A program made the position numbers and the translations under genes. From Sphaerobacter thermophilus DSM 20745 (GTDB taxonomy: Bacteria; Chloroflexota; Chloroflexia; Thermomicrobiales; Thermomicrobiaceae), in NCBI RefSeq assembly GCF_000024985.1, contig NC_013523.1, positions 1,984,001-2,048,000 of the forward strand: a DNA stretch of 64,000 bases, written 5' to 3'. Of this stretch, positions 5,392 through 50,143 are shown in pieces. Within the stretch, counting starts at the first letter, position 1. The number at the start of each line of letters is the position of its first letter. Below the pieces are notes generated by a model. The model searched no databases. It was not told where the DNA came from and saw only the letters and a program-made list of their open reading frames with translations.

Positions 5392-5634
5392 ATGACCTAT
5401 GTCATTGCGCAGCCCTGCATCGGGCTCAAGGATGCCTCCTGCGTTGAGGTCTGCCCGGTGGACTGCATCCACTCCGACGACGAGGCTGAGCAGTACTTCA
5501 TCAATCCCGACGAGTGCATCGACTGCGGCGTGTGCGCCGAGGTCTGCCCGGTGGAGGCCATCTTCTTCGAGGACGACCTCCCCGAGCAGTGGGCCGACTT
5601 CCTGCGCATCAACCGCGAGTACTTCCAGAAGTAG
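5392..5634 (+). CDS. seven-iron ferredoxin (3Fe-4S plus 4Fe-4S)
   Basis: Small soluble electron carrier of 80 residues. The first cluster motif is C9-x7-C17-x3-C21-P. The wide first spacing is typical of seven-iron ferredoxins such as those of Thermus and Azotobacter. The second motif, CIDCGVCAEVCP, is the regular 4Fe-4S pattern. The acidic C-terminus DDLPEQWADFLRINREYF is also typical. No obvious redox partner adjoins it. The ATG follows GAAAGGAC. Confidence 0.92.
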   Translation: MTYVIAQPCIGLKDASCVEVCPVDCIHSDDEAEQYFINPDECIDCGVCAEVCPVEAIFFEDDLPEQWADFLRINREYFQK

Positions 5635-5644
5635 CCGCCACGCG

Positions 5645-5844
5645 TCACACGCGTCATACGTCATGCGTCACGCGTGCGGCGTGCCGTATGTCCCGTCCGG
5701 CGTAGACCCAGCCGCCAACGGATGACGCGCCCCTCCCGGATTGCGAGAGGGGCGCGGTTAGGCTTTCCTCGGAGCACACGTGCAGACAGCGCGGAGCACG
5801 CGTCACGCGTCTTGCACGGCGGGTGACGCATGACGCATGACGCT
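5645..5844. repeat. heptamer repeat element, copy 1
   Basis: Left arm of TCATGCG-like units (TCATACG, TCATGCG, TCACGCG) from 5645. A central hairpin CGCGCCCCTC/GAGGGGCGCG lies at 5726-5735 and 5747-5756. The right arm is three units of TGACGCA/TGACGCT at 5824-5844. The hairpin probably terminates the ferredoxin transcript. The element ends at the stop codon of the minus-strand aminotransferase. Same layout as 13271-13406 and 23386-23528. Confidence 0.8.
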
Positions 5845-7216
5845 ATAGCTTCCCCTCCGCGCGCAGCTCGGCCGCCACGGCCTCGGCCGCCTCGGCCGCC
5901 GCCTCCAGCGTCTCCTGCACGTCCCGTTCGTCGTGCGCCGTCGACAGGAACCAGCGCTCCAGGTGATAGGGGTGGAAGTAAACACCCCGGCGGAGCATCT
6001 GGTCGTGAAAGCGGTCGAAGATCTCGACGCTCGAGTAGGCCAGCGCGTCGCGGTAGTTGCGGATGCGGTCGAGGTCTGGCGCGCCGGGCTTGGCGAAAAA
6101 GATGTGCCAGATCGGTCCGACGCCCTGCACGATATTCCGCAGGCCGGCCTCACGGCAGGCGTCCCCGATGCCCTGGCAGAGCCGCGCGCCGTAGGTGTTC
6201 AGCCGGTCCCAGAGTTCCTCTCTCCGCTCGCGCATAATGCGCAGCACGACGTTCGCCGCGGCCAACGCCACCAGGTTGGCGGTATAGGTGCCGCCGTGCA
6301 TCACCTCGTTGCGCGCCTCCAGGCCCATGACCTCCTCGGAGCCGCCGAACGCGGCGATCGGGAAGCCACCGCCGAGCGCCTTCGCCATGGTCGTGATGTC
6401 CGGTATCACCCCATAGAGCTCCTGGGCACCGCCGGGAGCGACCCGGAAGCCGGTGATCACCTCGTCGAAGATGAGCAGGGCTCCGTGCTGCCGCGTGATG
6501 TCACGCAGGAACTCCAGGTAGCCCGGCTCGGGCGGGATCAGGCCGCTGTTCGCCTGGATCGGCTCGACCAGCACTGCGGCAATGTCGTCGCCATACCGGT
6601 CGAACAGCATCTCCATGTTCTCGCGGTCGTTGTACTGGGCGATCAGCAGCGCCTCCCCATAGGACGGCGGGATGCCGCGCGAGCTCGGTCGCGGCTCCGG
6701 GCTGTAGGGGGCCGGGTTGTCGGAGTAGACGTCAGGGTGGATGCTCCAGTAGTGCGTGTCGGAGAACCCGTGGTAGCCACCCTCCATCTGCACGATCTTG
6801 GTGCGGCCGGTATAGGCGCGTGCCAGCCGCGCCGCGGCCATGGTCGCCTCCGTGCCGGAGTTGGCGAAGCGCACCTGATCGACCCCCGGCACCATCTGCA
6901 CCAGTTGCTCCCCGACCTCATAGTCGAGGTCGTAGGGGAAGGTCGCCACGCTGCCCCGCGTGGTGATGGCCTCGACGACCGCCGCCGTCACCTCCGGCGG
7001 ATTGTGTCCGAAGATGAGCGGGCCGTAGCCCAGGCTGTAGTCGATGTACTCGTGGCCGTCGACGTCCCAGAAGCGCGAACCTTGGCCCCGATCGAAGCAG
7101 AGCTCCAGGCCCTTCTTCAGCCGCGCGTAGGAACTCTCACCACCAGCAATCGATTTCGCGATGCGCTCGAACATCGCGCGGCTCTTGTCGAGTGTAAACC
7201 GCCCCTCTGCCTGCAC
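5843..7216 (-). CDS. class III aminotransferase, glutamate-1-semialdehyde aminomutase-like
   Basis: PLP enzyme of the GSA-aminomutase branch of class III aminotransferases. The start is taken as the GTG at 7216 (VQAEGRFTLDKSRAMFERIA), behind AGAGAGGAG with a six-base gap; the frame is open to 7480, but without family similarity. It has 457 residues. Motifs are [31 protein letters not shown] and the PLP-lysine region TMAKALGGGFPIAAFGG. It differs from HemL in substrate-site segments and lies beside a sugar-type ABC transporter, not in the heme operon. A catabolic or amino-sugar role is therefore more likely than 5-aminolevulinate synthesis. The true substrate is unknown. Confidence 0.85.
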   Translation of the reverse strand: MQAEGRFTLDKSRAMFERIAKSIAGGESSYARLKKGLELCFDRGQGSRFWDVDGHEYIDYSLGYGPLIFGHNPPEVTAAVVEAITTRGSVATFPYDLDYEVGEQLVQMVPGVDQVRFANSGTEATMAAARLARAYTGRTKIVQMEGGYHGFSDTHYWSIHPDVYSDNPAPYSPEPRPSSRGIPPSYGEALLIAQYNDRENMEMLFDRYGDDIAAVLVEPIQANSGLIPPEPGYLEFLRDITRQHGALLIFDEVITGFRVAPGGAQELYGVIPDITTMAKALGGGFPIAAFGGSEEVMGLEARNEVMHGGTYTANLVALAAANVVLRIMRERREELWDRLNTYGARLCQGIGDACREAGLRNIVQGVGPIWHIFFAKPGAPDLDRIRNYRDALAYSSVEIFDRFHDQMLRRGVYFHPYHLERWFLSTAHDERDVQETLEAAAEAAEAVAAELRAEGKL

Positions 7217-7393
7217 CCCAAACTCCTCTCTGACAGTCGCCTTATTGGTGGGCACGCCATCCCATACCGAGGACGAGGCGACCCAAAATACTCGCTCTCC
7301 GCGCCCCACCCCCGGTGGGGCTATACGACAGGCTGGCTCAGCATGACCGACGCAGCGAGTTGCGTCAAGAGGGTACACCGTCCCCACGAAAAC

Positions 7394-12945: not shown

Positions 12946-13260
12946 GTGAACGAGAAACCGGTCGTCGAAAAGCCGAAGCAGGTTGACTCGTATCAGCATG
13001 ACAAGCAGCGCATCCTGACCCGGCTGCGGCGCATGGAGGGGCAGGTCCGCGGCGTCCAGCGCATGGTGGAGGAGGACCAGTACTGCGTCGACATCCTCAC
13101 CCAGTTGTCCTCGATCATGGCCGCCGCCCGCAGCATCGGCCTCCTGCTCCTGGAGGATCACATCCGCGGCTGCGTCATCAATGCCGATGACGAGGAGAAG
13201 GAAGCCAGAATCCAGGAGCTGACCGAGGCGATCGACCGCTTCACCAAGAGCGTCGGGTAG
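12946..13260 (+). CDS. csoR: copper-sensing repressor, CsoR family
   Basis: All-helical metal-sensing repressor (DUF156), 104 residues. The Cu(I) ligands are C47, H72 and C76, with the same 25- and 4-residue spacing as C36/H61/C65 of Mycobacterium CsoR. The helix MEGQVRGVQRMVEEDQYCVDI is typical. It precedes copA and carries a matching operator upstream. The initiation codon is GTG or the nearby frame at 12946 behind GGAGGGGGAG. FrmR and RcnR relatives differ in ligand set, so copper is the best call. Confidence 0.93.
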   Translation: MNEKPVVEKPKQVDSYQHDKQRILTRLRRMEGQVRGVQRMVEEDQYCVDILTQLSSIMAAARSIGLLLLEDHIRGCVINADDEEKEARIQELTEAIDRFTKSVG

Positions 13261-13270
13261 GGACGGGATG

Positions 13271-13406
13271 TCATGCGTCATGCGTCATGCGTCATGCGTG
13301 ATGCGTCCCCCTCACCCCCGGCCCCTCTCCCCTGGTGGGAGAGGGGAGCACCACGGGTGACGTATGACGTATGACGCATGACGTGTGACGCATCACGCAT
13401 GACGCC
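13271..13406. repeat. heptamer repeat element, copy 2
   Basis: Left arm of five TCATGCG-type units (13271-13305). Central hairpin CCCCTCTCCC/GGGAGAGGGG near 13322-13346. Right arm of seven units TGACGTA/TGACGCA/TCACGCA (13358-13406). It occupies nearly the whole csoR-copA gap, so it is transcribed if the two genes share a promoter. Confidence 0.85.
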
Positions 13407-13421
13407 GAAGGAATCGAGCCA

Positions 13422-15902
13422 ATGACCACAACCACCACACCACGACGCGCCGCGCAGGCGCGCGCAACGCTGCTTGTCAGCGGCATGACCTGCGCCTCGT
13501 GCGTCCGGCGCGTGGAGCGCGCGCTGGAGCGCCTGCCCGGCGTCACCGACGCGCAGGTGAATCTCGCGACCGAGCGCGCGACCGTAACCTACGACCCGGC
13601 GACCGTGTCGGTGGCCGACCTGGTGCAGCGCGTCGAGCAAGCTGGCTATACAGCCACTGTCGAAGCAACGGATGACGAGACAGCGGCACACGACACGGCC
13701 GCCGTGGATCTCGCCATCACCGGCATGACCTGCGCCTCCTGCGTGCGCCGGGTGGAGCGCGCCCTGACGCGACTCGACGGGGTCGAGGCAGCCACTGTCA
13801 ACCTGGCGACCGAGCGAGCCAGCGTCACCTACGACCCAGAGCGGGTGAGCCTGGACCAGATCCTCCGCGCGGTGCAGGCCGCCGGTTACGGCGCAGATGT
13901 CGTCGCCGAGCCGGAGGAGATCAGCGACGCGGCCGATGAGGACGCCGCCCGACGCCGGCGCGAGATCGCCCGGCTGCGCCGGGACGTGATCGGCGCCGCC
14001 ATCCTCACCGTGCCGACCGTCATCCTGAACATGTTCTTCATGTCGCTCATGAACGTGGAGTACGTGCTCCTGGCACTGACGCTCCCGGTCTGGGCCTACT
14101 TCGGCTGGCGCTTCCACCGGGCGGCGCTCAAGAACCTGCGGCACGGCCAGTTCACCATGGACACGCTGGTCAGCCTCGGCACGACCGCAGCGTTCGGTTA
14201 CTCCCTGGTGGGCACGCTCGTTCTTGGCCGAATGGATCAGATCTACTACGACACCGCGGCCGTGATCATCACCCTGATCCTGCTGGGGCGGTACTTCGAG
14301 GCGCGGGCCAAGGGGCAGACCTCCTCGGCCATCAAGAAGCTGCTCGGCCTGCAGCCCCGCACGGCGCGGGTAATCCGCGGCGGCGAAGCGATCGACATTC
14401 CCATCAGCCAGGTGCGAGCCGGGGACCTCGTCGTCGTGCGCCCCGGTGAGAAGATCCCGGTCGACGGCCGGATCATCGAGGGCCGCTCCGCGGTTGACGA
14501 GAGCATGCTGACCGGCGAGAGCCTGCCGGTCGAGAAGGGTCCCGGCGACGAGGTGATCGGCGCGACCCTCAACACGAGCGGGAGCTTCACGTTCCGCGCG
14601 ACCAAGGTCGGGCGCGACACGGCCCTGGCCCAGATCATTCGGCTGGTCCAACAGGCGCAGGGCTCGAAGGCACCGATCCAGGGGCTGGCCGACCGCGTGG
14701 CGAGCGTCTTCGTCCAGGCCGTGCTGGTCGTCGCCGCCGTCACCTTCGCCGCCTGGATGCTCCTGGGCGGAGACCTGACCCACGCCCTGCTGGCGACCGT
14801 CGCCGTGCTGGTCATCGCCTGCCCCTGCGCTATGGGGCTGGCCACGCCGACCGCGATCATGGTTGGCACTGGCCGGGGGGCTGAGCACGGTGTCCTGATC
14901 AAGGGCGGCGACGTGCTCGAGCGCGCCCGGGAGTTGACCACCGTGGTGCTCGACAAGACCGGGACAATCACCCGCGGCAAGCCCGCAGTCACTGACGTCG
15001 TTCCGGCGCCCGGCTTCAACAGCGTAGCCGACCCGGCCGCGGAGCTGGTCCGCCTCGCCGCCGCCGTCGAGCAGCGCAGCGAGCACCCACTGGGCGCGGC
15101 CATCGTCCAACACGCGCGCGAGGCCGGGATCGACCTCGGCGCTCCGGTGGCCGACATCACCGCCGTCCCCGGGCACGGTATCACCGGCACCGTCGAGGGG
15201 CGTCCGATCCTGGTCGGCACCCGCAAGCTGCTGCGCGACCATGGGATCGCCCCCGACAGCCTGGAGGCAGACGCGGCGCGGCTGGAAGCCGATGGCAAGA
15301 CCTCCATGCTCGTCGCGGTCGACGGCCGGCCCGCCGGCGTGATCGCCGTGGCCGACACCGTCAAGCCGGGGAGTGCCGAGGCCATCGCCGCTCTGAAGCG
15401 AATGGGGCTCGACGTCGCCATGATCACCGGCGACAACCGACGCACCGCCGAGGCGATCGCCCGGCAGGTAGGCATCGACCGCGTGTTGGCCGAGGTTCTG
15501 CCGGGCCATAAGGCCGACGAGGTGCGCCGGCTGCAGGAGCAAGGCCACCGCGTGGCGATGGTCGGGGACGGCATCAACGACGCCCCCGCACTCGCCCAGG
15601 CCGACGTCGGCATCGCCATCGGCTCGGGCACCGATGTCGCCATCGAGGCCAGCGACGTGACGCTGGTCGGCAGCGATCTCCGGGGCGTCGTGACGGCCAT
15701 CGCCCTCTCGCGCCGGACGGTCCGCACGATCAAGTGGAACCTGTTCTGGGCGTTCATCTACAACACGATCGGCATCCCGATCGCGGCTCTGGGCCTGCTG
15801 AACCCGATGTTCGCCGCCGCCGCCATGGCCTTCAGCTCCGTCTTCGTCGTGACCAACTCCCTGCGCCTGCGCCGGTTCACACCCCCCACGGCGACAGGGT
15901 AA
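13422..15902 (+). CDS. copA: Cu(I)-translocating P-type ATPase with two N-terminal metal-binding domains
   Basis: Exports Cu(I) across the membrane with ATP. The 826-residue protein has two heavy-metal-associated domains, both with [15 protein letters not shown] (C24/C27 and C104/C107). Eight membrane helices carry the transport site C467-P-C469 ([14 protein letters not shown]). The actuator motif is [11 protein letters not shown], the phosphorylated residue is D511 in DKTGTITRG, with SEHPLG in the nucleotide domain and [11 protein letters not shown] near the C-terminus. It lies behind csoR, which presumably controls it, but the heptamer element in between could be a second control point. The two HMA domains look like a recent duplication. 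Confidence 0.97.
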
Positions 15903-21146: not shown

Positions 21147-21280
21147 GTTCGAACTCGAAGTGTAGCACGGTGATTACGGCACGATCGGCGCGCCACGCTC
21201 ATCGTCGTCCCGTGGAAATCGCTGCGCAGGGCGCGTCAAGGCGCAGACCCGGATGATGGGATGTTCACCGGTCGGCGCGT

Positions 21281-21426
21281 GCCCGGGTGTAAACCCCCGG
21301 GCTCACAAGAGAAGCCCGCTTCAGCGGGCTAGGAATCCTGGATCCCGTGGGCGGCCGGATCGGTTACGCCTGTATGTTGCCATCACAGCCCCTTCAGTGG
21401 GCTTACCCGAGGATTCAGCCCGGGGG
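21281..21426. repeat. palindromic dispersed element, copy A
   Basis: Outer palindrome GCCCGGGTGTAAACCCCCGGGC (shown as two arms 21281-21302). Then come AAGCCCGCTTCAGCGGGCT, about 55 less conserved bases, and right arm AGCCCCTTCAGTGGGCTT (21387-21404), ending near GCCCGGGGG. The inner bases resemble copy B at 56934-57075. The rest of 21147-21678 has no recognised gene. Confidence 0.75.
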
Positions 21427-21678
21427 TGGGTACGTGCCACCGCACGGGGATCCCTACACCACCAACCCCGGGCCCCCAACCTCGCCGCGAGGCTCCTCCC
21501 CCCACCCCCTTCGAACACCCACCGCCGCTGTGCCATCCCGCTTGCGCGCACCCCCACCGCACCCCGGTTGCCCGAAACGGGGTCAGGTGCTACAAGGGGA
21601 GCCCAGCGGGTGACGACGAACCGCGCCCCGCCCGGTTGGTGGGCAGGGGACGGCGACGCTGTGGCCGGGAGGGTGCCG

Positions 21679-23322
21679 ATGAGTGCGGGGCAGGATGAAC
21701 AGGTTCTCGAGAAGATTGTCGAACGCGTCCGCACGAACGTGCGGGCCGCAGGGATCCCTATTACCGACGATGACATCCAGGGGATGATCGATAAGGGCTT
21801 CCTGGCCAACGTGGTGGCCTTCGAGGCCATCGCAGCCCAGACGCCCACGGATTTGATCCCCGACTACCTCAAGGGTTGGGGAGAGGACGGCGCGCCGCCA
21901 GCTCCCACCGCGGCCGCTCCGGCCGGGTCCGCTGAGCGCGCACCGGCGACCGAGCGCGAGCCGGGGTACGAGACGCTCGCCGAGGTCGCGGCGCGCCTGC
22001 GTACAGGCGAGGTCTCCCCGGTCGAGCTGACGCAGCAGGCGCTTGACCGCATCGCCGAGCGCGATGGGGAGTTGAACAGCTTCCAGCTCGTGCTTGCGGA
22101 CGAAGCCCTTGCCGCCGCGCGCGAGGCCGAGCGGGAGATCGCCGCGGATAATTGGCGCGGCCCGCTGCACGGAGTTCCGGTGGCGGTGAAGGATCTACTC
22201 GCGATGAAGGGCACGGTCACCACCGCCGGCTCGAAGATCCTCGCTGATTGGGTCACGGACTTCGATGCGGCGGCCGTCGAGCGCCTGCGGGAAGCCGGGG
22301 CCGTGATCGTCGGCAAGACCCGCATGTCGGAGTTCGCCTACTCGCCAGGGTCGAACAACGCGCACTATGGACCAACGCCGAACCCGTGGAACCGGGAACA
22401 CGACTCGGCCGGGTCCAGCAGCGGTTCCGGCGCGGCGGTCGCCGACGGGATGGTCTACGGCGCGCTGGGCTCCGACACCGGAGGTTCGATCCGCATGCCG
22501 GCCGGGGTCTGTGGCATCGTCGGGCTGAAGCCCACCTTCGGCCGGGTCAGCCTCCACGGCGCCGTCACGCTCTCCTGGTCGCTCGACCACCTCGGGCCGA
22601 TGACACGCAGCGTCCGCGACGCCGCGGCCATGCTCCAGATCCTCGCCGGGCACGACCCGCGCGACCTCCGGGCCCGAGCCGTCCCGGTGCCGGACTACAG
22701 CGCGCAGCTCGACGCGGGCGTCGCCGGGCTGCGGATCGGTGTGCTGCGGGAAGACGGATCCGGGATGCCCCTCGGCACGGACGAGGCCCTGGCTGCCTGG
22801 CGGGCCGGGCTGGCTGCGCTGGAACGCAACGGTGCCGAACTGGTGGAGATCGACATCCCTGAGATGCAGGCCCTGCGCGTGCTGAACAGCGCGATCATCG
22901 CCATGGAGGCGGCGACCTATCACGAGCCCAATCTGCGCGAGCGGCTGGACGACTTCGGCGACTTCATGCGCCACCGCGTCCTCTCGGCGTACGGGTACGG
23001 CCCGCTCGCGCTGGTGAAGGCGCAGCAGGCGCGTGCGGCGCTCCGGCGCCGCCTCGACGCGATCTTCGAGCGCGTGGATCTGCTGAGCACCCCGACGTTG
23101 CCGTACGGCGCCCCGCGGCTCGGTGACCCCAGCCGAAACACCGTCTTCACCTCGCCCTTCAACGCGCTCGGCTGGCCCGCGATCACCGTCCCGGTAGGCC
23201 GCACGGCCGAGCGGCTGCCGCTCGGCCTGCAACTGGCCGGCCGGCCGTGGGACGAGGTCACCGTACTCCGCGCCGCGGCGGTCGTCGAGGCCGACGGCCC
23301 CTGGCCCGGCGGTAAGCCGTAA
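21679..23322 (+). CDS. amidase-signature enzyme with N-terminal helical extension
   Basis: Amide hydrolase of the amidase-signature family. The start is the ATG at 21679 (MSAGQDEQVLEKIVERVRTN) behind GGGAGG with six bases; an upstream open frame runs through a repeat and is rejected. It has 547 residues. About 75 N-terminal residues form a predicted helical domain, followed by an Ala/Pro linker and then the catalytic domain. K171 (VAVKDLL), the SSSGSG segment and DTGGSIRMP supply the Lys-Ser-Ser triad. No gatB/gatC adjoin, so it is probably not the tRNA amidotransferase subunit. Substrate unknown. Confidence 0.88.
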   Translation: MSAGQDEQVLEKIVERVRTNVRAAGIPITDDDIQGMIDKGFLANVVAFEAIAAQTPTDLIPDYLKGWGEDGAPPAPTAAAPAGSAERAPATEREPGYETLAEVAARLRTGEVSPVELTQQALDRIAERDGELNSFQLVLADEALAAAREAEREIAADNWRGPLHGVPVAVKDLLAMKGTVTTAGSKILADWVTDFDAAAVERLREAGAVIVGKTRMSEFAYSPGSNNAHYGPTPNPWNREHDSAGSSSGSGAAVADGMVYGALGSDTGGSIRMPAGVCGIVGLKPTFGRVSLHGAVTLSWSLDHLGPMTRSVRDAAAMLQILAGHDPRDLRARAVPVPDYSAQLDAGVAGLRIGVLREDGSGMPLGTDEALAAWRAGLAALERNGAELVEIDIPEMQALRVLNSAIIAMEAATYHEPNLRERLDDFGDFMRHRVLSAYGYGPLALVKAQQARAALRRRLDAIFERVDLLSTPTLPYGAPRLGDPSRNTVFTSPFNALGWPAITVPVGRTAERLPLGLQLAGRPWDEVTVLRAAAVVEADGPWPGGKP

Positions 23323-23385
23323 GGACCGAACGCTCACCCCCGATCCCCTTCTCCAAACGCAGGGAAGGGGATCGGGGGATCTCCG

Positions 23386-23528
23386 TCATGCGTCATGCGT
23401 CATGCGTCATACGTCACTCGTACTGCGTATTTCGTATGGCGTATCTCTCCCCTGCGGGGAGAGGGGCCGGGGGTGAGGGGAACGGTTGACGCATGACGTA
23501 TGACGTATGACGCATCACGCATCACGTA
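23386..23528. repeat. heptamer repeat element, copy 3
   Basis: Left arm of about eight heptamers, first TCATGCG x3 and then increasingly degenerate (TCATACG, TCACTCG, TACTGCG). Central hairpin CTCTCCCC/GGGGAGAG near 23446-23466. Right arm of six units from TGACGCA to TCACGTA (23487-23528). The right arm supplies the last codons and stop of the minus-strand gene ending at 23522. Confidence 0.85.
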
Positions 23529-24370
23529 TCGCGAAACCGCTTCCCGTGCACCCGATCTTGATCGACGAGCGCCTGGTCGGCAGCTCGCTGCTCGATGACC
23601 TCCTCGGGTGGGAGATCGCGGCGACGCGCGACGTCCTCGCGTGGATCCGACTCGCCCCAGTGATCGATGTCCACCAGGTAGGAGAAGCGGTCGAGGAGCG
23701 GTCCGCGGAAGGGGACCTCGGGGCGCGCGGGCGTGCGCAGGTCGTCCTGCAGCCGCGCGATCAGATACTCGACCACCCAGGTCGGGACCAGCGAGCGGGC
23801 CTCGGGGTAGACAAAGCGGTAGTAGTGGATGTAGACGCTCAGCAGCTCCCAGTGGTCGGCGTAGCGGTCGAGGAGGTGCTGCCAGTTGATCCGGTCGTGG
23901 GCGCGGCGGATCAGGTGGGCGATGTCGGCGCCGTCGAATCGCTCCCGCCCGGCCACGTATGACTTGGCCCAGATCAGATCGGTGATCGCCAGGACCGACG
24001 TGTCGAGGCCGAAGATCCGCAGCGGCTCGCTGGCCTCGAACCAGCTATCGTCCACCGGCTGGAGCCAGTTCCCAAACCCTGAGATCAGGTCGACGACAAC
24101 ATCGTCGTCAACGGCCTTCGCCAGCCAGTGCGATGCGAGGATCTCCACCCGGAACCCGGCATTGGCGAGGGCCACCAGCGCCGGGTCGCGATCCTCGGGT
24201 CGCAGGAAGAGATCGAGATCTTTGGTGTTCCGCCAGAGTCCAGTGTAGTGATAGACCGCGAGCGCCCCGGCCACCAGGTAGGGCACGCCCGCGTCCTGCA
24301 GCGTCTGCATGGCGCGCGTGTAGATAGCCTGGACCTCGGCGGGCAGGTCGTGTTGCATGCTCATCTGCAT
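23522..24370 (-). CDS. nucleotidyltransferase-fold protein
   Basis: 282 residues from the ATG at 24370 (MQMSMQHDLPAEVQAIYTRA) behind GGAGG. The segment PYLVAGALAVYHYTG followed by RNTKDLDLFL has the Gly-rich strand and DxD pair of minimal nucleotidyltransferases (also called nucleotidyl transferase AbiEii-like or DUF1814-like folds). The C-terminal half is helical and Trp/Tyr-rich. No antitoxin-like partner is seen. The reading frame ends inside the right arm of a heptamer repeat (last residues GKRFRDT), so the C-terminus may have been altered by the repeat. Function unproven. Confidence 0.75.
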   Translation of the reverse strand: MQMSMQHDLPAEVQAIYTRAMQTLQDAGVPYLVAGALAVYHYTGLWRNTKDLDLFLRPEDRDPALVALANAGFRVEILASHWLAKAVDDDVVVDLISGFGNWLQPVDDSWFEASEPLRIFGLDTSVLAITDLIWAKSYVAGRERFDGADIAHLIRRAHDRINWQHLLDRYADHWELLSVYIHYYRFVYPEARSLVPTWVVEYLIARLQDDLRTPARPEVPFRGPLLDRFSYLVDIDHWGESDPREDVARRRDLPPEEVIEQRAADQALVDQDRVHGKRFRDT

Positions 24371-24514
24371 GCCTATTCCTCCGTCCTCCCCGGCCACGTT
24401 GCCGGGTTGCGCGTGCAAATGCAAATCACGTACCGCCGTCGTGGTCCGATTCCTGCAGCATGCGGGCGGGCGGGTCACGAACGCCGTGCCCGGGACACGT
24501 AGGCGGAGAGCGCT

Positions 24515-25291
24515 GTGATTCGACTGGCGGCGATTGGCGACATTCACACCCGGAAGGGCACGGAAGCAGAGCTGCGGAAGTTGTTCGACCTTGTCCGGGA
24601 GGAAGCCGACCTGCTCCTCCTCGCGGGCGATCTGACCGACAGCGGCGTGGCTGACGAGGCCCGGGTGCTCGCCTCGCTGCTCGACTGCGAACAGCTCCCC
24701 GTCGTCGCGGTCCTGGGCAACCACGACTGCCACCACAACCAGCAGGAGGCCATCCAGGAGATCCTCGAGGCGTGTGGGGTCGTCGTACTCGACGGCGACG
24801 GCTGGGTGTTCGAACGCGCCGGGGTGCGCCTCGGCCTGGCAGGTTGCATCGGCTTCGGCGGAGGTTTCCGGCCTTTTAACCTCGAGCCCTTCGGCGAGAC
24901 GGCCTGGAAGATCCTCTACGACAAGGTCATCGAGGAGAGCCGCAAACTCGACCGCGGGCTGACCGCGGTCGCGGACTGCGACTACCGCGTCGCGCTCACA
25001 CACTACAGCCCCACCGTCGACACCATGGGCGATGAACCGCCGGCACTGCACCCTTACCTGGGGTCGAGCGAACTGGGTCAGGCGCTGGAACGCCACCAGG
25101 TGCTCTTCGCCGTCCACGGCCACGCCCATCGCGGTCGGCCGGAGGGATGCACCGACCAGGGCATCCCGGTCTACAACGTCGCGCTGCCGGTCGTCCGGCG
25201 TCCGGTGATCTGGCGCTTCGACCCGAGGCGCGAGGACACGGTCGTGGAGCCGATCCTGGTCGGCTCGGACGGCCCGACGAGCGATGGTTAG
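24515..25291 (+). CDS. metallophosphoesterase
   Basis: Calcineurin-like phosphoesterase of 258 residues. All family motifs are present: GDIHTRKG, AGDLTDSG, GNHDCHH, a histidine in THYSPTVDT, and HGHAHRG. These bind two metal ions. The GTG start follows GGAG. The substrate could be a nucleotide, phosphoprotein or nucleic acid. It is not an SbcD: it lacks the C-terminal capping domain, and sbcC is 29 kb away. Confidence 0.9.
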   Translation: MIRLAAIGDIHTRKGTEAELRKLFDLVREEADLLLLAGDLTDSGVADEARVLASLLDCEQLPVVAVLGNHDCHHNQQEAIQEILEACGVVVLDGDGWVFERAGVRLGLAGCIGFGGGFRPFNLEPFGETAWKILYDKVIEESRKLDRGLTAVADCDYRVALTHYSPTVDTMGDEPPALHPYLGSSELGQALERHQVLFAVHGHAHRGRPEGCTDQGIPVYNVALPVVRRPVIWRFDPRREDTVVEPILVGSDGPTSDG

Positions 25292-33031: not shown

Positions 33032-33080
33032 CGCGGCCCCAGAGAGCGGCGGCATCGTGCCACGACCCCGTGCGTCGCTC

Positions 33081-33104
33081 CCCTCTCCCAACGTTGGGAG
33101 AGGG
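33081..33104. terminator. bidirectional hairpin between convergent genes
   Basis: Perfect palindrome with arms CCCTCTCCCAAC/GTTGGGAGAGGG, followed by GTCGGGGGTGAGG. The same C/G core occurs in the centre of the heptamer elements and after rpoN. Confidence 0.6.
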
Positions 33105-33131
33105 TCGGGGGTGAGGGTCGCTCCCTGGTTA

Positions 33132-50003: not shown

Positions 50004-50018
50004 ATCACAAACCGTGTC

Positions 50019-50118
50019 GCTCATCGTGCGGACACTGTCCGCCGGCATTGGCACCTGGCGCGGTACGCGCTGGTTGCCGGGCTTCGCAGGGCCGTTCCCT
50101 CCACCACTCTGGATGAGC
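50019..50118 (-). ncRNA. SAM-I (S-box) riboswitch aptamer
   Basis: P1 stem GCTCATC/GATGAGC (50118-50112 with 50025-50019). Conserved core CCAGAGTGGTGGAGGGA, CCGGCAACC and CAGGTGCCAATGCC in the S-box order. SAM binding should stabilise P1 and let the downstream terminator form, switching expression off. Confidence 0.93.
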
Positions 50119-50143
50119 AGAACTCTATTCAGTTGTGGGTCGG

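Follow-up and report, generated by a model that had tools for sequence, protein, structure and literature searches.

Arrays of tandem seven-nucleotide units adjacent to genes have so far been reported piecemeal, and the explanations offered invoke G-quadruplexes or a post-transcriptional regulator. The nearest published case is that of Xanthomonas, whose GGGAATC heptamers, generalized as (GGGANTN)n, are mostly intergenic, as are the GGGGA(C/T)T heptamers of Nostoc (PMC4692102). According to the portions of that report on which we draw, the Xanthomonas heptamers occur on both strands as convergent pairs in inverted orientation (70 and 75 cases), lie near or overlap stop codons, fall between divergent genes in 7-8% of cases, and mostly occupy the same gene pairs in two species, with varying length and sequence. 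The authors favour G-quadruplexes, and quadruplex-capable repeats showed more transcript starts and stops than a control set; those portions report no regulatory role (PMC4692102). The TAACTGA repeats of Beggiatoaceae, cyanobacteria and Bacteroidetes, in contrast, are described as direct, with one indirect case in the Guaymas genome, and indels in them between two Cyanothece strains come mostly in 7-nt steps (PMC4679880). Among palindromic repeats, REP dimers are described as possibly forming longer hairpins (PMC3733652). A literature search that covered few subscription papers returned no description of such repeats in Sphaerobacter or of inverted heptamers in Chloroflexota.

Here, we analyzed a window of 64 kb (the whole stretch of DNA under study, C1:1984001-2048000) from the two-replicon genome of Sphaerobacter thermophilus DSM 20745, which comprises 3,993,764 bp (PMC3035262). 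The original prediction had placed inverted heptamer-array elements at 5645-5844, 13271-13406 and 23386-23528, each consisting of TCATGCG-like units, a common C/G-rich hairpin, and TGACGCA-like units that are the reverse complements of the first. Upon re-reading the sequence we recovered all three elements there, with the following parts and flanking genes (window coordinates):

5392..5634, plus strand: ferredoxin-like gene (4Fe-4S), ending before copy 1 (Pfam Fer4)
5650..5684, no strand: copy 1, left heptamer array, TCATGCG type (sequence reading)
5726..5757, limits approximate, no strand: copy 1, centre, a hairpin unlike the common core (sequence reading)
5824..5844, no strand: copy 1, right heptamer array, TGACGCA type (sequence reading)
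5843..7255, minus strand: class III aminotransferase gene, converging on copy 1 (Pfam PF00202)
12946..13260, plus strand: CsoR-like metal-sensitive repressor gene, upstream of copy 2 (Pfam PF02583)
13271..13308, no strand: copy 2, left heptamer array, TCATGCG-like (sequence reading)
13309..13357, no strand: copy 2, centre, REP-like core CCCCTCACCCCCGGCCCCTCTCC...GGGAGAGGGG (sequence reading)
13358..13406, no strand: copy 2, right heptamer array, TGACGCA-like (sequence reading)
13422..15902, plus strand: copper-type P-type ATPase gene, downstream of copy 2 (Pfam HMA and E1-E2_ATPase)
21673..23322, plus strand: amidase gene, upstream of copy 3 (Pfam PF01425; start from our own gene caller)
23382..23444, no strand: copy 3, left heptamer array, TCATGCG outside, then TACTGCG/TATTTCG inside
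23445..23486, no strand: copy 3, centre, REP-like core in the opposite orientation
23487..23529, no strand: copy 3, right heptamer array (sequence reading)
23522..25129, minus strand: nucleotidyltransferase-like gene, converging on copy 3 (Pfam PF14907, 31.8 bits against a cut-off of 31.2)

The flanking genes are convergent at copies 1 and 3 and in tandem at copy 2. The common central hairpin was found in copies 2 and 3, the former carrying the C/G-rich pair CCCCTCTCCCC/GGGAGAGGGG, but not in copy 1, where a different hairpin, CGCGCCCCTC...GAGAGGGGCGCG, takes its place. The further claim that a right arm provides the stop codon of a gene is borne out by copy 3, in which the TGA (23522-23524) of the minus-strand gene lies inside a right-array unit, and at copy 1 the TAG (5843-5845) of the minus-strand gene abuts the right array. 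Elsewhere in the window, the REP-like core (CCCCTCTCCCAACGTTGGGAGAGGG...GGGTGAGGG) stands on its own, without heptamers, at 33080-33120. Another dispersed family, abundant in the congener G001, is represented at ~21278-21426 and, judged by eye from its translation, resembles the palindrome that flanks a Y1 transposase gene (see below); since this repeat lies in the upstream part of the open reading frame 21253-23322, the amidase start is probably near 21673. In an Rfam search of the window at the gathering score, the elements had no match, the sole match being a SAM riboswitch (50018-50119, minus strand, 84.9 bits).

Beyond the window, arrays were counted in a sample of 1.264 Mb, of which 864 kb were unselected (400 kb of C2 and, with the window, 464 kb of C1) and 400 kb lay around known matches. 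Training position weights on both strands drifted, mixing two orientations, and a fixed unit matrix (NNACGNA in the R orientation) was therefore used as the array finder. This yielded 133 heptamer arrays in 81 clusters, compared with 7 and 2 arrays in equal lengths of sequence simulated under first-order and third-order Markov models, respectively. Reversed sequence was rejected as a control for this permissive finder, as it gives 109 arrays itself, because the reversed unit resembles the units of the inner zone (see below). With a stricter finder, the unselected 864 kb contained 37 arrays, against 2 in the reversed sequence. As 33 of the 81 clusters fall in the unselected part, some 150 would be expected per genome. 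The arrangement of the arrays is strict: among neighbouring arrays at most 350 bp apart, 48 pairs were left-right, 2 left-left, 2 right-right and none right-left, and in every left-right pair a TCATGCG-type array is followed by a centre and a TGACGCA-type array. Two congeners gave 35 left-right and no right-left pairs. The layout first noticed in three copies is thus kept across many, in 48 two-armed clusters with arms mostly 40-60 bp apart, besides 20 clusters with only a left array and 13 with only a right array; the unit number varies across dispersed elements, as had been predicted.

The arms consist of tandem 7-nt units with variable positions, as in Xanthomonas-type repeats. Two classes of unit can be distinguished, TGACG/TCACG (e.g. 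TGACGCA) on the outside, and ATACG/GTACG and ACACG (ATACGCA/ACACGGA) on the inside; 47 arrays that contain both classes follow this outer-to-inner order and 19 do not. None of TGACGCA, TGACGTA and ACACGGA has a GGG run, so that the G-quadruplex proposed for the Xanthomonas repeats cannot apply here. The centre is more variable. The core CCCCTCACCCCCGGCCCCTCTC(GGACGGAGCCCACC)AGGGGAGAGGGG occurs in 32 of the 48 two-armed elements, and has 73 copies in the 1.264 Mb, of which 3 lie inside genes and 25 have no detected adjoining array. Being palindromic, mostly extragenic and present in at least tens of copies, it shares these properties with REP/REPIN sequences. The core recurs alone in the family members G003 and G005, and is therefore older than the heptamers or independent of them. 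Other centres hold another REP type (C2:386 kb; G002), or a terminator-like stem (1966779) that is kept in G001 with paired changes, and some have no hairpin.

In 25 elements that could be oriented by their core, the unit beside the CCCCTCAC side was of the outer class in 23, and that beside the GGGGAG side was of the inner class in 14, an asymmetry which suggests that the elements spread as a composite. Together with the many similar copies, the REP-like core and the presence of one Y1 transposase gene in the genome, this asymmetry would fit an active mobile element of the MITE or REPIN type that inserts at stop codons. We nevertheless consider such an element unlikely, and less likely than the 3'-end hairpin set out below. 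The core is absent from 16 of the 48 left-right elements, and the single Y1 gene is not flanked by a matching repeat, as a RAYT gene would be:

C1:86896-87234, minus strand: L112, the sole Y1 transposase gene found in the genome, flanked by the palindrome CCGGGCTGACAAGGCGAAGCCCACTGAAGGGGCT

This palindrome differs from the elements, and no heptamer array was seen in the surrounding 3.3 kb; from their translations, we take the neighbours of the gene to be gyrB and gyrA.

The comparison with relatives also bears on mobility. Of 61 genomes searched, the three of one genus (G000, the S. thermophilus genome, and its congeners G001 and G002) had 142-334 overlapping matches each; 17 of 18 other family members had none and the remaining one had one, while 8 of 40 others in the order had 1-11. 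We compared sites using those clusters of G001 (~91% DNA identity) and G002 (~80%) for which both flanks lie in the G000 sample. Arrays were present at the matching G000 junction for 10 of 10 G001 clusters and 12 of 14 G002 clusters, where 75 of all 1,044 sample junctions hold a cluster. Neither of the two sites without arrays in G000 is a clean empty site, nor was any seen among the congener sites compared; 22 of 24 sites being common to the species speaks against active transposition. The elements entered, or grew in, tight operon-like junctions, given the shorter gaps in other family members: the csoR-copA gap is 2 bp in G004, 19 bp in G007, 41 bp in G003 and ~85 bp in G005, versus 161 bp in S. 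thermophilus, and the tandem junction at C1:2124477 measures ~38-39 bp in G003 and G008 (BLAST offsets), versus 119 bp. At the 1966779 element, whose neighbours are convergent, gene order in family members was too little conserved for the gap to be measured. Many draft contigs of G001 (C34, C44, C48, C70, C209, C211, C237, C288 and C291) begin near arrays or other dispersed repeats; assemblies from short reads are thus likely to break at such places and to undercount these sequences.

While the sites are conserved, their content is not. Orthologous junctions differ in unit number, centre and additional REPs: the 13271 locus has 5 left and 7 right units, versus 3 and 6 in its orthologue; the junction of copy 1 (5645) in G001 has no heptamers, only a stem and a REP-like core; and the mean array length is 10.3 units in G002 and 6.0 in G001. 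Such variation is expected if the arrays are neutral, slippage-prone repeats that grow and shrink, are homogenized by recombination, and persist only where they are tolerated (downstream of stop codons, ahead of ribosome-binding sites and away from promoters), with an inverted layout inherited from an ancestral element. This explanation, a serious rival to the 3'-end hairpin even if we find it somewhat unlikely, agrees also with adjacent units being closer to one another than random units (1.74 versus 2.38 differences out of 7). It accounts less well for the strict array order in three species, and for the conservation of 22 of 24 sites despite replaced content. Alignment gaps between orthologous elements, moreover, showed no excess of lengths divisible by 7 (3 of 66 and 14 of 205, in noisy alignments), with one exact one-unit difference at 13271, and slippage as the sole source of turnover was therefore rejected.

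The position relative to genes was determined with our own simple gene caller, for which stops are exact and starts uncertain. Only 3 of the 81 clusters lie inside genes. The 77 that could be placed comprise 56 in tandem, 20 in convergent and 1 in divergent gaps, whereas the gaps of at least 100 bp in the sample (n = 575) comprise 336, 89 and 150, respectively; divergent gaps, which hold promoters, are thus avoided, in keeping with neutral repeats that persist where they are harmless. Array edges hug the genes: 66 of the 76 that face a gene 3' end are within 21 bp of the stop codon, a bias towards gene ends that fits the original prediction, and 32 of the 49 that face a 5' end stop 5-24 bp short of the start, immediately ahead of the ribosome-binding region. 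After subtracting the element, the residual gap has a median of 15 bp over the 48 two-armed clusters, and lies between -14 and 45 bp in the 12 of them that are convergent, compared with a median gap of 99 bp between convergent pairs without arrays, which would be unexpected if a mobile element had inserted at random.

Of the 66 genes that abut an array, 32 have a stop codon in register with its units, compared with ~9 expected, and 39 end in TGA, versus 516 of 1,060 genes overall. The excess in register raises the idea of a translation-stop or coupling device, in which one arm would offer TGA every 21 nt in each of the three frames, with overlapping ATGA. The inner units ACACGGA and ATACGCA hold no stop codon, however, for which reason the all-frame stop array was rejected, and as the polarity is opposite in the distant genome G424 (see below) and tandem GGGAATC of Xanthomonas reads without a stop codon, we regard such a device as very improbable, and well behind the 3'-end hairpin.

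The original prediction also held that the layout could fold into one long hairpin. In RNA folding at 55 C, all 45 two-armed elements analyzed were more stable than their dinucleotide shuffles (z < -2, median z -5.9), and in 43 of the 45 the shorter arm had over half of its length paired with the opposite arm (median pairing 0.79). Exchanging the right arm for one from another element changed the energy little (median z -0.2), so the hairpin is modular. Two arms of the same element, too, are barely more alike than arms drawn from different ones (P 0.04 and 0.24 by permutation); there is thus no locus-level covariation that would prove selection on pairing, as neutral repeats would have it. For the same reason, palindrome correction by template switching was rejected as the main cause of arm matching.

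Most likely, then, these inverted intergenic heptamer repeats, whose unit is not G-rich, are 3'-end and intercistronic RNA hairpins that turn over in place. We favour this reading tentatively, as one of old, dispersed elements with a probable RNA-hairpin effect on the flanking genes. Each is a composite, with two inverted tandem-heptamer arms around a centre that is most often REP-like, and occupies the stretch from a stop codon to the ribosome-binding region of the next gene, or to an opposing stop codon. Because it fills the gap after the stop codon, it is expected to be transcribed as a 3' untranslated or intercistronic part of the mRNA; and because all arms are of one repeat and can pair in many registers, the hairpin would survive unit gain, unit loss and exchange of the centre. 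A strong 3' RNA hairpin in the cell could cause partial termination, protect the mRNA end or uncouple the neighbouring gene, effects on expression for which the hairpin may have been selected. The strict order, the hugging of gene ends, the folding, and the shared sites with exchanged centres all favour the 3'-end hairpin. Counting against it are the 33 of 81 clusters with a single arm, the centres without a hairpin, the lack of locus-specific arm matching, and the absence of an intrinsic-terminator T run after the hairpins in those elements that were read by eye. Termination in particular is difficult to reconcile with csoR-copA, an expected operon in which a strong terminator would be harmful.

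Related arrays exist in distant lineages. TGACGNA arrays (four units, one mismatch) were found in 7 of 400 genomes of the phylum, G000 among them, and G203, G248 and G424 had 30-98 overlapping matches, against 0 for the reversed pattern. In G002, G228 and G383 many matches of the backward-read control were seen, which are GCAGTAC-like arrays, the Sphaerobacter inner-zone unit. For G424, 27 clusters were found in 20 match-centred regions, and their neighbouring pairs were right-left in 12 cases and left-right in 1. Polarity is thus largely the same throughout a lineage, and it is opposite between this lineage and Sphaerobacter; the TGACGAA arrays of G424 often begin at the stop codon and enclose a short AAGAGC...-type centre. 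CGTCATT arrays lie at gene junctions in G023 and G027, which belong to a different family of the same order. A contig scan for four exact TGACGCA units returned 45 loci from many phyla, 6 of which have a neighbouring inverted pair; 2 of these are from a Sphaerobacter MAG, and in L155 the arrays overlap, probably as an artefact. We also observed CAGTGGN, GCCACTC and ACTGACC heptamers near or beside TGACGAA arrays at gene junctions (G424, L207, L213, L267, L271 and L277).

That TGACGNA arrays recur in distant Chloroflexota, and that most unit variants read have ACG at positions 3-5 and A at 7, would fit a DNA- or RNA-binding protein that reads the 7-nt repeat, the arrays being candidate regulatory or chromosome-organizing sites. 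Yet the unit type shifts along the array and differs between lineages, and promoter gaps are avoided; we therefore think a binding protein improbable and less likely than the 3'-end hairpin, and the earlier suggestion of a protein-binding site in the motif ATGCGTCA is not supported. The recurrence of inverted pairs in unrelated lineages (G424; PMC4692102) is equally awkward for neutral repeats. A separate appearance of TGACGCA in Sphaerobacter, of TGACGAA with opposite polarity in other Chloroflexota and of GGGAATC in Xanthomonas, if real, would point to a constraint that counts seven rather than to a G-quadruplex or a fixed protein site. More speculatively, and with considerable doubt, all could be instances of a recurrent bacterial device, in which period 7, inverted pairing and stop-codon position are set while the unit sequence is free, made or kept by a seven-counting enzyme or a folding constraint.

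Several known systems share part of this anatomy. MIRU of Mycobacterium tuberculosis are intercistronic and fit between a stop and a start codon, like the Sphaerobacter elements, but differ in unit length and sequence and have no inverted heptamer arms. TAACTGA arrays share the intergenic location, the 7-nt unit and the proximity to start or stop codons, and differ, as far as described in the portions of the report used here, in their direct orientation, other unit and lack of a core (PMC4679880). REP/BIME sequences (GTAG and CGTC REPs) share short palindromic cores that are mostly intergenic and sometimes lie inside other repeats (PMC3733652), whereas the Sphaerobacter arms are tandem heptamers without a second REP, around a core that has no GTAG/CGTC family assignment. 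The elements of Geobacter metallireducens (PMC2700814) and the (GATAGRA)n satellites of Chloroflexus aurantiacus, a member of the same phylum (PMC6749651), are likewise dispersed tandem heptanucleotides; their units are different, and the portions of these reports consulted do not describe inverted pairs around a core. Closest remain the inverted heptamers of Xanthomonas, with which the Sphaerobacter elements share a 7-nt unit with some fixed positions, intergenic location in inverted convergent pairs, proximity to stop codons, depletion from divergent gaps, and conserved junctions of variable content. Unlike them, the Sphaerobacter elements have a REP-like core and an outer-to-inner order of units, lie tight against the start region as well as the stop codon, and belong to a different phylum. 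The same layout is thus found with a unit incapable of forming a quadruplex, in fixed order and tight against the stop codon, at junctions that are kept at ~80% DNA identity with their inner sequence replaced. Since the layout is kept while the sequence is replaced, the two are separable, and why the unit is seven and why the arrays are inverted become questions that can be tested across lineages.
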